From assembly GCA_038746285.1 (NCBI GenBank), contig JBCDKT010000002.1, positions 62,001 to 126,000 on the forward strand: DNA of 64,000 bases, given 5' to 3'. The first letter of the stretch is position 1; every line of letters begins with the position of its first letter. Both the position numbers and the translations under genes were made by a program. Under the pieces are notes generated by a model. That model was not told the DNA's origin and did not search any database. It saw only the letters and a list, made by a program, of their open reading frames with translations. This DNA is from Bacteroidota bacterium (GTDB taxonomy: Bacteria > Bacteroidota > Rhodothermia > Rhodothermales > JANQRZ01). Shown here piece by piece: positions 17,603 to 24,332 of this stretch.

Positions 17603-18727
17603 GTGACCCGGCTCTCGCTCCTGGAAGCACGACTCCGGCGCTGGTTCCGCCTCTTTCTCCCACTGTGGGTGAGCTGGGCCGTCACAGCCTTTGTGGCTGC
17701 CGAGTTGGTGGATGCGCAGCCTCCGGAGGCTCCGTGGTGGCACAGTGTCGTACTTCCCATTCTCGTGGGCGGTCTGGTCGCAGCGGGGGGCGCATGGCTG
17801 GAGACGGGCGTGCTGGCGCGGGCCGGGCGGCGCCTGCCGCTTGGCCTCACGCTTGCCCTGCGCACGGCGCTCTACGCCCTCGTCGTAGCCGCGGCCCTCG
17901 CCGTGATGATCGTGCGAGTGCTTCCCGCGCTGACGGGACTGCCCTTGAGCACGCTCATCGAGGACGTTGGTGTGGAGCAGACCATCCGGCGGTTCTGGTC
18001 CGTGCTCGTGCTGCTCGTGCTCGGCTCGTTCGTGATCAACCTCGCGCTGCAACTCCGCCGCGTGCTCGGCGGGGGCACGCTGTGGGCGCTGCTCGTGGGC
18101 CGCTACCTCCGCCCGACCCCGGAAGAGCGCCTCTTCATGTTCCTCGACCTGACCGACTCGACGGCGATTGCCGAGCGCCTCGGCCCGTTCCGGTTCACGG
18201 ACTTCAAGAACGACTTCTTCGCCGACGTCGCCCAGCCAGTGCTGACGACCCGCGGCCAGATCTACCAGTACGTCGGCGACGAGGTGGTGATCACATGGCC
18301 GATGGCGCAGGGCCTCCGCGGCGGCGCGTTCCTTCGGTGCTTCTTTCTTCTCGAAGACCGGGTCCAGCGCCGCGCCGCGTACTACCAGGCGACCTATGGC
18401 TGCGTGCCTGCGTTCAAGGCGGGCTGCCACGGCGGCGAAGTCGTGACCGCGTTCATCGGGGACCTCAAGAGCGACCTCGCCTACTCGGGCGATGTCGTCA
18501 ACACAGCGGCGCGGATCGAGGGCCAGTGCCGGCCGCTCGGGTACCGCTTGCTCATCTCCGACACGCTCCTGGAGCGCTGCCCGCTGCCCGACGGGCTGAC
18601 GGCCGAGGAGGTCGGCACCGTCCTGCTTCGCGGAAAGGCTGAAGCCCTCCAACTCTACAGCATCAGTGGACCGAGACCGGAGCAGGCGTCGGAGCACGAA
18701 CGGACTGCCGCCGTGCCTTCGGGGTAA
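17603..18727 (+). CDS. Membrane-bound class III adenylate cyclase
   Basis: A 374-residue protein with four predicted membrane helices (about residues 17-36, 46-64, 82-105, 125-148) followed by a cyclase homology domain (about 175-355). Two metal Asp are seen in FLDLTDST and YVGDEVVITWP; the substrate Lys lies in FKAGCHGG, and the transition-state Asn and Arg in GDVVNTAARIEGQC. The Lys/Asp pair favours ATP over GTP, so the product is probably cAMP. The GTG start at 17603 lies 20 bp after the RND stop; co-transcription with the pump is possible. Confidence 0.85.
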   Translation: MTRLSLLEARLRRWFRLFLPLWVSWAVTAFVAAELVDAQPPEAPWWHSVVLPILVGGLVAAGGAWLETGVLARAGRRLPLGLTLALRTALYALVVAAALAVMIVRVLPALTGLPLSTLIEDVGVEQTIRRFWSVLVLLVLGSFVINLALQLRRVLGGGTLWALLVGRYLRPTPEERLFMFLDLTDSTAIAERLGPFRFTDFKNDFFADVAQPVLTTRGQIYQYVGDEVVITWPMAQGLRGGAFLRCFFLLEDRVQRRAAYYQATYGCVPAFKAGCHGGEVVTAFIGDLKSDLAYSGDVVNTAARIEGQCRPLGYRLLISDTLLERCPLPDGLTAEEVGTVLLRGKAEALQLYSISGPRPEQASEHERTAAVPSG

Positions 18728-19757: not shown

Positions 19758-21092
19758 ATGCGTTTCGCTCTTCTGTGCGTGCTCGCGGCGATGCTTACCG
19801 CCTCGCCCGCCCGCGCTCAGTATCCCGCCCCCGCCGACTCCGTCGCGGCGACGCTGGACCCGGCTTCGGACGACGAAGCGAACCAGGCGTCCGACCCGGA
19901 CCGGGTTCCGTACGAGACCGAGACGAACCTCGGTGCGCACGTCCTCGCGCTTCCGGCTACGGTCTGGGGTGGCGTGGCCTACCTCTTCCGCTCGCTCGTG
20001 CTCTACGCCGAGTACAGCGGCAATATCGAGCGCGCCGAGCGGCTGCTCCAGAACCGGCCGCCCGTCTACGCGCTCCCGACGCTGAGCGTGGGCGGGCGCG
20101 AGGGTCTCGCGGGCGGGCTGACGGTCTTCGCCACCGAGGGGCTACTCGGCGGGCAGCGCAGCGGGCGGATCGGCGGTTTCTACGCGGCCGACGGCTCATA
20201 CGCTGCCTCCGGCCGGTTCAACGACGGGGGCCTCTTCGGCAGCCCGCTTCGCCTGCTCGTCAGCGGAGGCTACGAGCGCGATGCCGAGGAGCGCTTCTTC
20301 GCCCTCGGCAACGACAGCGACGACGACGAACTGATCGACTACGCCTTCGAGCAGGGCCTGGCCGGGATGGGGTTCGAGCTACCCGTCGGCGCGCACGTCC
20401 GCCTCGGGGCCGACGGCGAGTTCAAGCACTACGAGGTGACGAGCTTCGACGAGGAAGGCGGCACGCCCTTCCCCGCCGACAGCGTCGCCGGGTTCGGCGG
20501 GGCGGACTTCCTCTCGGCTGGGGCGACGTTCGTGCTCGACTTCAGCCGGGCCGGGGGGCTCTACGCCCCGCGCACGGTCGGCGGGACCGAACTGATCCTC
20601 GGGGTCCGCTACGGCACCGACGTCTCGGCGGCCCCCGCCGGCGGCCCGCTCGGCTACCTCCGCACCTCGGCCGAGGTGAGGCAGTTCGTCCCGGTTCCCT
20701 TCCTCGCCCCCGAGCGGCGGCTCGCGCTCCGCGCCCGCCTCGTCCGCGTCAACGCACCGGGCGGCGACACGGTGCCGTTCTACGAACTCGCCACACTCGG
20801 CGGGCCGGACGACCTGCGCGGCTTCCGCTTCGACCGCTTCCGCGACCAGGGCAGTCTGCTCGTCACCGCCGAGTACCGCTGGCCCATCTTCAACACCTTC
20901 GACGCCGTCCTCTTCACCGACGCCGGGCAGGTCTTCGACGACTTTGAGGAGATCGGCCTTGAGGAATTCCACTTCGACTTCGGCGGCGGCTTCCGCGTCT
21001 TCGGGGCCGGAGGCGTCGCCGCCCGCGTCGAACTCGCCTTCAGCCCCGAAGGCCCGCCGCGCCTGATCGCCCAAGTGGGAACCTCGTTCTGA
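19758..21092 (+). CDS. Omp85-like outer-membrane beta-barrel protein
   Basis: A 444-residue exported protein with signal peptide MRFALLCVLAAMLTASPARAQ; an in-frame GTG 60 bases upstream is less likely. The C-terminal two thirds alternate polar and hydrophobic residues as in a 16-strand barrel. It contains the block LGGPDDLRGFRFDRFRDQG, matching the (V/L)RG(F/Y) tip motif of the BamA/TamA surface-antigen barrel, followed by EYRWPIF. No POTRA domain is evident in the short N-terminal part (residues 21-110). The stop overlaps the ATG of the lipoprotein gene (TGATG), so the two proteins are probably made together. Confidence 0.75.
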   Translation: MRFALLCVLAAMLTASPARAQYPAPADSVAATLDPASDDEANQASDPDRVPYETETNLGAHVLALPATVWGGVAYLFRSLVLYAEYSGNIERAERLLQNRPPVYALPTLSVGGREGLAGGLTVFATEGLLGGQRSGRIGGFYAADGSYAASGRFNDGGLFGSPLRLLVSGGYERDAEERFFALGNDSDDDELIDYAFEQGLAGMGFELPVGAHVRLGADGEFKHYEVTSFDEEGGTPFPADSVAGFGGADFLSAGATFVLDFSRAGGLYAPRTVGGTELILGVRYGTDVSAAPAGGPLGYLRTSAEVRQFVPVPFLAPERRLALRARLVRVNAPGGDTVPFYELATLGGPDDLRGFRFDRFRDQGSLLVTAEYRWPIFNTFDAVLFTDAGQVFDDFEEIGLEEFHFDFGGGFRVFGAGGVAARVELAFSPEGPPRLIAQVGTSF

Positions 21093-22822
21093 TGACGCAC
21101 CGCACGCTCCTTCTCCTCCTCGTCCTCGGACTCGCCGGGTGCGCCGGCACGAAGCCCTACACGACGGGGCCGGTCAAGACGTTCGACCCGGACAACCGCG
21201 ACATCTCGCGCCCGGCGGAGGCGCGCGAGAACCAGTACTGGGACCCCATCGACCGGACGTTCTTCTACCAAATCCAGAAGCCGCTCGACCTCAACTGGCT
21301 CGGTCGGAAAATCGGGCAAGGGCTGGGCCTCGTCGGGCCGAAGGAGGCGCAGAACGTCAACACGCTCGACGAGGTGCCGAACTCGTCGTGGTTCACGCAG
21401 CGGCACTTCTACTTCCCGATGTCCGAGGCCGAGCTCCGGCGCGGCCCGAACGTCACCGACGGGCCGGACCTCTCGGCGTGGACCGTGATCGCGGGCAAGA
21501 GCGAGGGCAAGACGAAGGGCTTTACGATCGAGGACGCGCGCGGCGACCGCTACGTCATCAAGTTCGACGGCCCGAACTTCCCCGAACTGACCTCCTCGGC
21601 CGAGGTCATCGCAACCAAGATCTACCACGCGGCGGGCTACTTCGTCCCCCAGAACACCGTCACCTACTTCGACCCGGCGATCCTGTCGCTTGGCCCCGAG
21701 GCCGAGGTCGAAGTCGAGGGCCGCGAGCGCCGGATGACCGACGCCGACCTCGCCGCGATCCTCGACCCGCAGCCGCGCCGCGCCGACGGGCGCATCCGGG
21801 CGATGGCGAGCAAGTACGTCGACGGCCGCCCCATCGGCATCTGGACCTTCCGGGGCACCAAGCGCGACGACCCCAACGACCGCGTCCGCCACGAGCACCG
21901 CCGCGAGCTGCGCGGCCTGTCGGTGCTCGGAAGCTGGATCAACGACGCCGACCGCCGCAACGCCAACACGCTCTCGGTCTACACGACGGACGTGCGCGCC
22001 GGTGCCGATGGCAGCCCCGACACGGCGCGCTACATCAAGCACTACGTCCTCGACATGGGGTCCACGCTCGGCGCGAACGGCTCGGGCACCCACGTCGTGC
22101 AGCACGGGCAGGAGTACCTCTTCGACCCGCGCACGATGGCCTACCAGACCGTCACCCTCGGCCTCGACCCAAAGCCGTGGGAGTTCCAGCCGCTGGAGAT
22201 CAAGTACCCGTCGGTTGGCTACTTCACGGCGGAGTATTTCGAGCCGGAGGACTGGGTGATGGTCCACCCGAACCCGGCCTACGAGTACCGCACCGACCGC
22301 GACGGCTTCTGGGGCGCGAAGCGCGTCATGGCTTTCACCGAAGCCGAGGTCCGCGCGATCGTGGACGAGGGCCAGCTTACCAATCCAGAGGCTGAGGAGT
22401 ACCTCGTGCAGACCCTCCTCGCCCGCCGCGAAGCGATTGGCCGCTACTGGTTCGGCCAGGTCAACCCGCTCGACCGCTTCGTGCTCGCCCGGCTCGACTT
22501 TGCCGGTGGCAGCGAGCCGTTCGTGCTGGAGTTCGACGACCTCGCCGTGACGTACGGGCTGGAGCCGAGCGCTGCGAGCCGCTACGCCTACGCCGTCTAC
22601 CACGGCGGCACCCAACTCACCGACGGCACCGCCGATGCGCCAAGCGTCCCGGTCCCCGCGCTTCCTGCCTCCGCCGCCGAGTCCACCGGCGAAGACGCCC
22701 GCGTGCTCCGCGTCGAACTCGTCACCCTCCGCGACGGCCAGGAGCCGAGCGACGCCGTGAACGTCTACCTCCACTTCCCCACCGACGGCCGCATGCGCGT
22801 CGTCGGCATCGAGCGAGAATAG
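21092..22822 (+). CDS. Lipoprotein with protein-kinase-like motifs
   Basis: A 576-residue lipoprotein (LGLAGCAG, Cys about residue 17) of a family I cannot name. Its middle carries motifs ordered as in atypical kinases such as HipA, CotH or FAM20C. A putative ATP lysine lies in YVIKFDGP (K157), with a helix glutamate in SSAEVIATKI (E171). A catalytic-loop-like NDADRRNAN follows (D285-N290), and then a metal-loop-like VLDMGSTLG (D321). About 100 residues of extra sequence precede the core, and a C-terminal part (about 400-576) may be a beta domain. The lipobox implies a location outside the cytoplasm. Coupled by TGATG to the Omp85-like gene. The kinase idea is inference from motif order. Confidence 0.6.
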   Translation: MTHRTLLLLLVLGLAGCAGTKPYTTGPVKTFDPDNRDISRPAEARENQYWDPIDRTFFYQIQKPLDLNWLGRKIGQGLGLVGPKEAQNVNTLDEVPNSSWFTQRHFYFPMSEAELRRGPNVTDGPDLSAWTVIAGKSEGKTKGFTIEDARGDRYVIKFDGPNFPELTSSAEVIATKIYHAAGYFVPQNTVTYFDPAILSLGPEAEVEVEGRERRMTDADLAAILDPQPRRADGRIRAMASKYVDGRPIGIWTFRGTKRDDPNDRVRHEHRRELRGLSVLGSWINDADRRNANTLSVYTTDVRAGADGSPDTARYIKHYVLDMGSTLGANGSGTHVVQHGQEYLFDPRTMAYQTVTLGLDPKPWEFQPLEIKYPSVGYFTAEYFEPEDWVMVHPNPAYEYRTDRDGFWGAKRVMAFTEAEVRAIVDEGQLTNPEAEEYLVQTLLARREAIGRYWFGQVNPLDRFVLARLDFAGGSEPFVLEFDDLAVTYGLEPSAASRYAYAVYHGGTQLTDGTADAPSVPVPALPASAAESTGEDARVLRVELVTLRDGQEPSDAVNVYLHFPTDGRMRVVGIERE

Positions 22823-22836
22823 CCACCCTACCACAA

Positions 22837-22908
22837 GCCATCCCCGCGCAGGCGGGGATCCACTGGGTTAGCAAGACCTGTGGATCCCGGCTCGAGGGCC
22901 AGGATGAC
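22837..22908. repeat. Short dispersed palindromic repeat (CCCCGCGCAGGCGGGGATCC type)
   Basis: Left arm CCATCCCCGCGCAGGCGGGGATCCAC and right arm GTGGATCCCGG...GGATGAC form an imperfect inverted repeat around a spacer of about 16 bp. The left arm itself holds the hairpin CCCCGC-GCAG-GCGGGG. Its minus-strand translation (RHPGPRAGIH) is typical of a repeat type scattered through unrelated genomes. It fills most of the gap between the lipoprotein and translocase genes. Confidence 0.7.
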
Positions 22909-22967
22909 GATACGCTAAGCTGCCGGGAGCTACGCTACCCCGCACGTTAGACACCGGACGCTGCCCT

Positions 22968-24332
22968 ATGCTGCAACGGCTCAAAGACGAGTTCCTCGAC
23001 CTCCGCCGCGACGAGTGGCCGCTGGCGCTCTCGATGTTCGGATACTTCTTCCTCGTCATCACCTCCTTCTGGATCCTCAAGCCGATCAAGAAGGCGCTCT
23101 TCATCGAGTTCTACGACCAGGACGGGTTCGCCCTCGCCGTGTCGGGACTGTTCCAAGTCGAGCTCCTCGCCTCGCAGGCGGAGCTGTTGGCGAAGGTGCT
23201 CAACATGGTCGTCGCAGCCGTCGCCGTCGTCGTGTTCACGATCCTCGCACGGCGGATGCGGCGGGAGCAACTGACCTATGCCTTCGCGGGGTTCTTCCTC
23301 GCGGCGTTCGCGGCCTACTCCCTCATCATCAACGACCCCGGCGACGCGACGGTCTGGAGCTTCTACCTCTTCGGCGACCTGTGGACGACGCTGATGGTGG
23401 CGACGTTCTTCGCCTTCCTCAACGACAGCGTGACGCCGCGCGCGGCGAAGCGGCTCTACGGCCTCGTCGTCCTCGGCGGCGTCGCCGGCGGGGCGTTCGG
23501 GACGACCTTCCTCGCGGTCTACATCGACGACATCCCGGTCTCGGCGTGGCTGTGGATCTGCTTCGGCATGGCCGTCGCGATCATCGGGCTGGCCTACGTT
23601 GCCGGGCGGATCGTCCGGCAGAACCCGCCGCCGGAAGTCACGCCCGAGGGCATCGACCCGGGCCGCGGCGAGGGGGCGACGAAGAAATCCAACGCGGCGC
23701 TCGAAGGGGCGCGGCTCGTCTTCCGCTCGAAGTACCTCCTCTCGATTGTCGCGATTGTCGGCATCTACGAGATCGTCTCGACGGTCCTCGACTTCCAGTT
23801 CTCGTCCACGATTGCCCACTACCTCGACGGCCCGGCCATCGGTCAGCAGTTCGCGACGGTCTTTGCGATCTCGAACGTGGTCGCGCTCGTCGTGCAGATC
23901 TTCCTGACGACGGTCGTGATGCGCCGCTTCGGCCTGACGACGGCGCTCCTCATCACCCCGTTTGTGATGGTCCTCGGCTCGGTCGCCTTCCTCGCCGTAC
24001 CCGTGCTGTGGGTCGGCTCGCTCCTCAACACCGCCGACAGCGCGTTTGCCTACTCGATCAACCAGAGTGCCCGCGAGGCGCTCTACACACCGACGACGCG
24101 CGACGAGAAGTATAAGGCCAAAGCGTTCATCGACATGTTCGTCCAGCGCTTTGCCAAGTCCGTCGCCGTCGGCGTGAGCCTCCTCGTGACGCTCCTCTTC
24201 GCTGACTTCTCGACGATCCGCTGGCTGAGCCTGCTCACCCTAGCCCTCGTTGCCGTGTGGGCCGTCGCCGCGCGCTACGCCGGTCGGCAGTTCGCCGAAA
24301 TGGAGTCGCGTGAAGAAACTACTGCAGGATGA
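22968..24332 (+). CDS. ATP/ADP translocase-like (Npt/NTT family) membrane protein
   Basis: A 454-residue polytopic protein with about 12 hydrophobic segments. The N-terminal block FFLVITSFWILKPIKKALFIE and the motifs LGGVAGGAFG and INQSAREALYTPTTRDEKYKAKAFID are typical of bacterial Npt1/Npt2-like relatives of the nucleotide translocases of obligate intracellular bacteria. A cytoplasmic Lys-rich loop lies around residues 230-245. In free-living bacteria the substrate is unproven. It follows the kinase-like lipoprotein gene after 145 bp containing a dispersed repeat, in the same direction. A paralogue fused to HEAT repeats starts at 27095. Confidence 0.75.
   Translation: MLQRLKDEFLDLRRDEWPLALSMFGYFFLVITSFWILKPIKKALFIEFYDQDGFALAVSGLFQVELLASQAELLAKVLNMVVAAVAVVVFTILARRMRREQLTYAFAGFFLAAFAAYSLIINDPGDATVWSFYLFGDLWTTLMVATFFAFLNDSVTPRAAKRLYGLVVLGGVAGGAFGTTFLAVYIDDIPVSAWLWICFGMAVAIIGLAYVAGRIVRQNPPPEVTPEGIDPGRGEGATKKSNAALEGARLVFRSKYLLSIVAIVGIYEIVSTVLDFQFSSTIAHYLDGPAIGQQFATVFAISNVVALVVQIFLTTVVMRRFGLTTALLITPFVMVLGSVAFLAVPVLWVGSLLNTADSAFAYSINQSAREALYTPTTRDEKYKAKAFIDMFVQRFAKSVAVGVSLLVTLLFADFSTIRWLSLLTLALVAVWAVAARYAGRQFAEMESREETTAG

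Follow-up and report, generated by a model that had tools for sequence, protein, structure and literature searches.

Within a 64,000-nucleotide stretch of DNA from a Rhodothermales bacterium (the window), we found a locus that brings together an outer-membrane barrel, a kinase-like lipoprotein (KIN) and ATP/ADP translocase-like carriers of the NTT family. The linkage of the barrel, KIN and, often, an ATP carrier suggested phosphorylation outside the cytoplasm with exported ATP. Judged from sequence, the locus is probably an envelope phosphorylation module, in which NTT would exchange cytosolic ATP for periplasmic ADP, and KIN a putative new kinase-like family of exported proteins. The phosphorylation module proposed in an earlier note on this DNA was, taken as a whole, partly supported: the kinase-like fold, the conserved residues, the recurring neighbours and the link to a nucleotide carrier gained support, whereas phosphotransfer itself, the direction of nucleotide transport and the part of the barrel as substrate or platform gained none. 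The note had also held that the gene set was not described as a system, and no description turned up in the open-licence full-text papers searched.

Table 1. Features of the barrel-KIN-NTT locus in the window
Feature	Position	Strand	Evidence
Omp85-superfamily barrel gene, without POTRA	19758-21092	+	PF01103, AlphaFold2 model, Foldseek, alignment
KIN (kinase-like lipoprotein, 576 aa)	21092-22822	+	conserved residues, profile, model
NTT-family (ATP/ADP translocase-like) carrier, 454 aa, single domain	22968-24332	+	PF03219, phmmer
Second NTT-family carrier, HEAT-repeat fusion, 943 aa	27095-29926	+	PF03219, PF13646
REP-like dispersed repeat, KIN/NTT intergenic, outside the module	22840-22910	.	genome repeat matches

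The module was supported directly by its gene content. The overlap through TGATG, by which the earlier note had joined the barrel and lipoprotein genes, was located at 21090-21094, where the TGA of the barrel gene shared one base with the ATG of KIN. The translocase-like gene said to follow in the same direction matched PF03219, all three genes being on the same strand, and a second PF03219 gene further downstream had been absent from the earlier set. KIN and the first NTT gene were separated by 145 bp, and the REP-like repeat inside this spacer was matched 26 times across the genome (identity 74-100%). Upstream of the barrel gene, the ORF at 17603-18727 encoded a membrane protein in which a class III cyclase domain was recognised (PF00211, E 5.8e-5); the module as drawn here excludes the upstream genes for phosphatidylserine decarboxylase and cyclase, because these were re-found only in the nearest genus relative.

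The N-terminus of KIN, MTHRTLLLLLVLGLAGCAGT, consisted of a signal peptide and a lipobox (LAGC, with the lipobox cysteine at C17). A kinase-like core spanned approximately residues 130-455 and included K136, K157, E171, D287, R289, N292, H317 and D321, and a fibronectin-III-like beta domain occupied the C-terminus (approximately residues 460-576). The motifs that had been read in the lipoprotein (K157, E171, N284-DADRRNA-N292 and L320-DMGSTLG) were all present. We aligned 80 homologues that represent at least ten phyla and for the most part share 34-55% identity with the window protein, and their conservation supported the reading: K136, K157, D287, N292, H317 and D321 were identical in 80/80 sequences, N284 was kept in 71/80, and E171 was less strict (61/80). 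The lysine, catalytic aspartate, asparagine and metal-binding aspartate of kinases were therefore represented in order by K157, D287, N292 and D321 in every homologue, including the three residues (K157, D287 and D321) on whose conservation the earlier note had let its proposal depend. Because six residues were identical in all 80 sequences and the pairing with the barrel was kept across phyla, the resemblance of these motifs to those of kinases is beyond chance. Export was likewise predicted from sequence, with a signal peptide in 82 and a lipobox in roughly 60 of 84 KIN genes, both called by simple patterns rather than by a trained predictor. A plain signal peptide was mostly seen in Gemmatimonadota, Acidobacteriota and Eisenbacteria, so that lipidation of KIN is common but not general.

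The fold of KIN was assigned by combining three lines of evidence, namely a profile match to HipA_2, the invariant residues and a structural match. HHalign aligned the KIN profile with HipA_2 at E 4.4e-5 and a score of 44.6, pairing HipA_2 counterparts with K157, E171, a GY/GL-VP motif, D287, R289, N292 and D321, whereas reversed or shuffled HipA_2 columns scored 10-23 and a control with the barrel alignment scored 29.8. KIN thus shares with HipA and HipA_2 (PF20613, PF07804) a significant profile similarity and the order of residues, but it has additional domains and, between E171 and D287, a large insert. HipA proteins are cytosolic; the aligned HipA_2 proteins were approximately 250-290 aa long and carried no signal peptide, whereas KIN is predicted to be exported. 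Since the window protein scored 12.4 bits against PF20613, below the 27-bit Pfam cut-off, with weak matches in 11/80 members (best E 0.0055), KIN is best described as a putative relative of HipA_2 and was not counted as a member. No Pfam or NCBIfam model matched KIN above cut-off; among Pfam kinase families this held for the window protein and the 80 members, which also gave no Pfam CotH or FAM20 match. Sequence searches of the PDB with the single protein or the KIN profile yielded no kinase, and two matches at E 0.12-1.1 were rejected as noise.

The structure model of KIN (mean pLDDT 94.5) had FAM20 kinases as its best solved fold matches (E 2e-3, TM-scores 0.27/0.36), followed at lower rank in the PDB by Rio2, an alpha-kinase, VPS34 and PINK1, and several kinases also appeared among the matches in a viral library. 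Matches to FN3 and cytokine-receptor domains were due to the C-terminal FN3-like domain and not the core. The predicted fold, which the earlier note had said would count against its proposal if unrelated to kinases, was kinase-like in that KIN was HipA-like by profile and FAM20 was its top solved match, but no match fell below E 1e-3, and the modelled fold match is not significant by itself. FAM20 (FAM20C, a Golgi casein kinase) and CotH, which has been likened to FAM20C (PMC12189002), are atypical kinases for secreted or coat proteins and in this respect resemble the role proposed for KIN. However, KIN had no sequence match and a weak fold match to them, and its lipobox, C-terminal FN3-like domain and Omp85 partner are its own; CotH, moreover, is part of the Bacillus spore coat and not of an outer membrane.

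One scan of genome contigs returned 228 stretches encoding KIN relatives, and the best 80 loci were analysed. These fell into at least ten phyla by the names in the record titles: Rhodothermales/Bacteroidota, Balneolota, KSB1, Calditrichota, Latescibacterota, Zixibacteria/GN15, Marinimicrobia, Nitrospirota, Gemmatimonadota, Krumholzibacteriota, Eisenbacteria, Acidobacteriota and Fibrobacteria. The distribution was patchy (14/396 genomes of Bacteroidota, the phylum of the window, and 2/148 of Nitrospirota), cultured carriers included Salinibacter, Fodinibius and Nitrospira, and no KIN gene was found on a plasmid. The neighbours of KIN, which the earlier note had allowed might differ in all relatives, instead recurred across phyla. 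All-against-all clustering of neighbours was swamped by ORFs lying antisense to conserved genes in GC-rich DNA; from it we retained no more than the phosphatase and cNBD clusters and those specific to a lineage. One KIN of the window's order (L176, genome G653) grouped with Zixibacteria, weakly (82/27) but within a clade that had full support, a placement that suggests horizontal transfer.

The most constant neighbour of KIN was the barrel. The barrel ORF of the window matched Omp85 (PF01103, E 1.3e-12) and comprised a signal peptide, a linker, two helices (58-98) and 16 strands, the strands being those of an AlphaFold2 model (pLDDT 86.7) whose closest Foldseek matches were the BamA/TamA barrels (E 6e-14). 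An LRGF motif (R354/G355) corresponded to the RGF conserved in an alignment of 62 barrels, and only a low-confidence stretch and the two helices preceded the strands, with no POTRA or other N-terminal domain. With its 16 strands and L6 RGF/Y motif, the protein fits the 'noNterm' Omp85 class of PMC4104836, a source in which these barrels and those of PF00149-Omp85 fusions ('Metallo') are alike and the word 'kinase' is absent. The barrel was directly upstream (within 185 bp) of 76/84 KIN genes, with a median gap of 12 bp and 18 overlaps; apparent overlaps hundreds of bases long (L088, L098, L102) were set aside as start-site artefacts. Moreover, barrel and KIN distances correlated at 0.90 over 60 pairs (no permutation exceeded 0.11), to which shared species history contributes. 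Within the family, the pairing of barrel and KIN is the constant part.

Both carriers of the window scored above the PF03219 cut-off of 21, at 83.7 bits (E 1.7e-23) for the single-domain protein and 44.1 bits (E 1.6e-11) for the HEAT fusion, which also matched PF13646 (E 5.5e-15). The former retrieved solved ADP,ATP carriers by phmmer (9j3n, E 2.7e-14; the chloroplastic 9j3j, E 4.5e-14), and the window NTTs were distant from characterised carriers. An NTT gene, single-domain or HEAT-fused, was in the same locus in 44/80 KIN loci and within 300 bp in 23; it was on the strand of KIN in 38/44, upstream or downstream by lineage, and homologues of the HEAT fusion adjoined KIN in other genomes. At the genome level, NTT genes were present in 48/49 KIN genomes searched, the exception being a draft MAG. 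In Bacteroidota they occurred in 12/12 genomes with intact KIN, 0/2 with degenerate copies only and 14/382 without KIN, and in Nitrospirota in 2/2 KIN genomes versus 10/146 without KIN. NTTs therefore also occur without KIN, in 3.7-6.8% of KIN-less genomes in the two samples. The Fisher value for the association in the phylum sample (3.9e-16) overstates certainty, because the set of 49 KIN genomes shares members with the other samples, and because relatedness makes genomes non-independent. The tie of carrier to lipoprotein was nonetheless stronger than had been claimed, NTT being found almost always where an intact KIN copy was. The NTT-HEAT and cNBD neighbours here match the description in PMC5381601, in the available part of which there is no mention of an exported kinase-like protein linked to NTTs. 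In another locus a cNMP-binding gene followed the HEAT-fused NTT gene (L050:3919-4398). With the cyclase domain encoded upstream in the window, this makes a cyclic-nucleotide tie to the NTT carriers possible.

Within the window's order, one clade of KIN paralogues, from Salinibacter and its relatives (L022-L025, L165-L172), had lost K157 and D287/N292. The degenerate copies kept the upstream barrel wherever the contig was long enough, and none had NTT beside it in any locus. Within this order NTT was present in 17/18 genomes with intact KIN (the exception was 56% complete) versus 0/6 with degenerate copies only. Several independent losses of the catalytic residues were rejected, as the tree placed the degenerate copies in one clade; the joint absence of catalysis and NTT therefore counts as about one event, which the loss of one operon could explain. 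The degenerate paralogues are likely pseudokinases. KIN catalysis would have been lost about once, and a pseudokinase scaffold probably left. Since the barrel stayed with copies lacking both catalytic residues and NTT, the tie between barrel and lipoprotein is independent of catalysis. This persistence, together with the correlation of barrel and KIN distances, is also what would be expected if KIN were in the main a lipoprotein that supports the barrel structurally, much as BamB-E support BamA, with its fold a scaffold and the NTT link incidental. We consider this unlikely, in that a scaffold needs none of the six catalytic-type residues that were identical in 80 sequences, and the contrast in NTT content between KIN genomes and KIN-less ones argues against an incidental link.

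In Calditrichota, KSB1, Marinimicrobia and Balneolota, genes for exported calcineurin-like phosphoesterases (PF00149) followed KIN at a distance of 2-39 bp, and in other loci they were near KIN. Downstream of one KIN-NTT cluster, a PF00149 phosphoesterase was fused to an Omp85 barrel (L057:15485-18997); such a fusion, POTRA-less like the barrel described here, was already listed in PMC4104836, where it is called a metalloprotease. PF00149 includes nucleotidases, and the characterised NTTs of parasites import ATP (PMC5381601), so that NTT might import envelope nucleotides or phosphate, with KIN and the phosphatase forming a scavenging pathway. This is highly improbable in our judgement: KIN genomes were of ordinary size (approximately 2-9 Mb) and not reduced, and scavenging leaves the invariant kinase residues and the constant POTRA-less Omp85 partner unexplained. 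A further alternative is that KIN uses ATP for another chemistry, still fed by NTT. Proteins with the kinase fold are known to perform other chemistries, AMPylation in SelO and glutamylation in SidJ, and the catalytic set of KIN points to nucleotide and metal binding but not to the group transferred. A paper on polyglutamylation is cited in PMC7948968. The order of D287 and N292 is nevertheless HipA-like, as in phosphotransferases, and the adjacent calcineurin-like phosphatases fit a phosphate mark, although their family also has nucleotidases; another chemistry is thus rather improbable.

We therefore return to phosphorylation in the envelope, and infer the localisation and activity of KIN, its substrate and the direction of NTT transport as follows. 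After export and lipidation, KIN would sit beside the barrel on the periplasmic side of the outer membrane and move phosphate from ATP onto a target in the envelope. The likeliest candidates for this target are the barrel itself, the passenger of the barrel, and a glycan or lipid that meets the barrel. In the common view there is no ATP in the bacterial periplasm, and a kinase there therefore needs a supply. An inner-membrane NTT may trade cytosolic ATP for periplasmic ADP; as an ATP/ADP antiporter, one carrier would both feed the kinase and return its product. The exported calcineurin-like phosphatase, where present, may reverse the mark or salvage nucleotide. More tentatively, and with somewhat less than even confidence, these parts may form a dedicated system, in which periplasmic ATP supplied by NTT serves an outer-membrane-anchored kinase acting on an Omp85-type barrel or its client and an exported phosphatase reverses the mark. 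The role of NTT in free-living bacteria is left open in PMC5381601. Against the proposed ATP/ADP exchange, the same paper gives NAD as the cargo of a characterised NTT outside the main clade, and another NTT did not carry nucleotides. If true, a dedicated module would explain the retention of NTT by some free-living bacteria, and the gene set offers one testable answer, NTT as a source of envelope ATP, with KIN, spread over at least ten phyla, as the candidate family of enzymes.

Two lineages had arrangements of their own. In Zixibacteria the gene directly after KIN encoded a protein of 450 aa that matched nothing in Pfam and carried an apparent signal peptide (L079:11674-13026; relatives in L066, L075, L077, L081 and L101), possibly a lineage-specific substrate or partner of KIN. 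A Fibrobacteria contig had a single cluster in which the barrel-KIN pair occurred twice, along with two NTT genes (L105:1117-11662).
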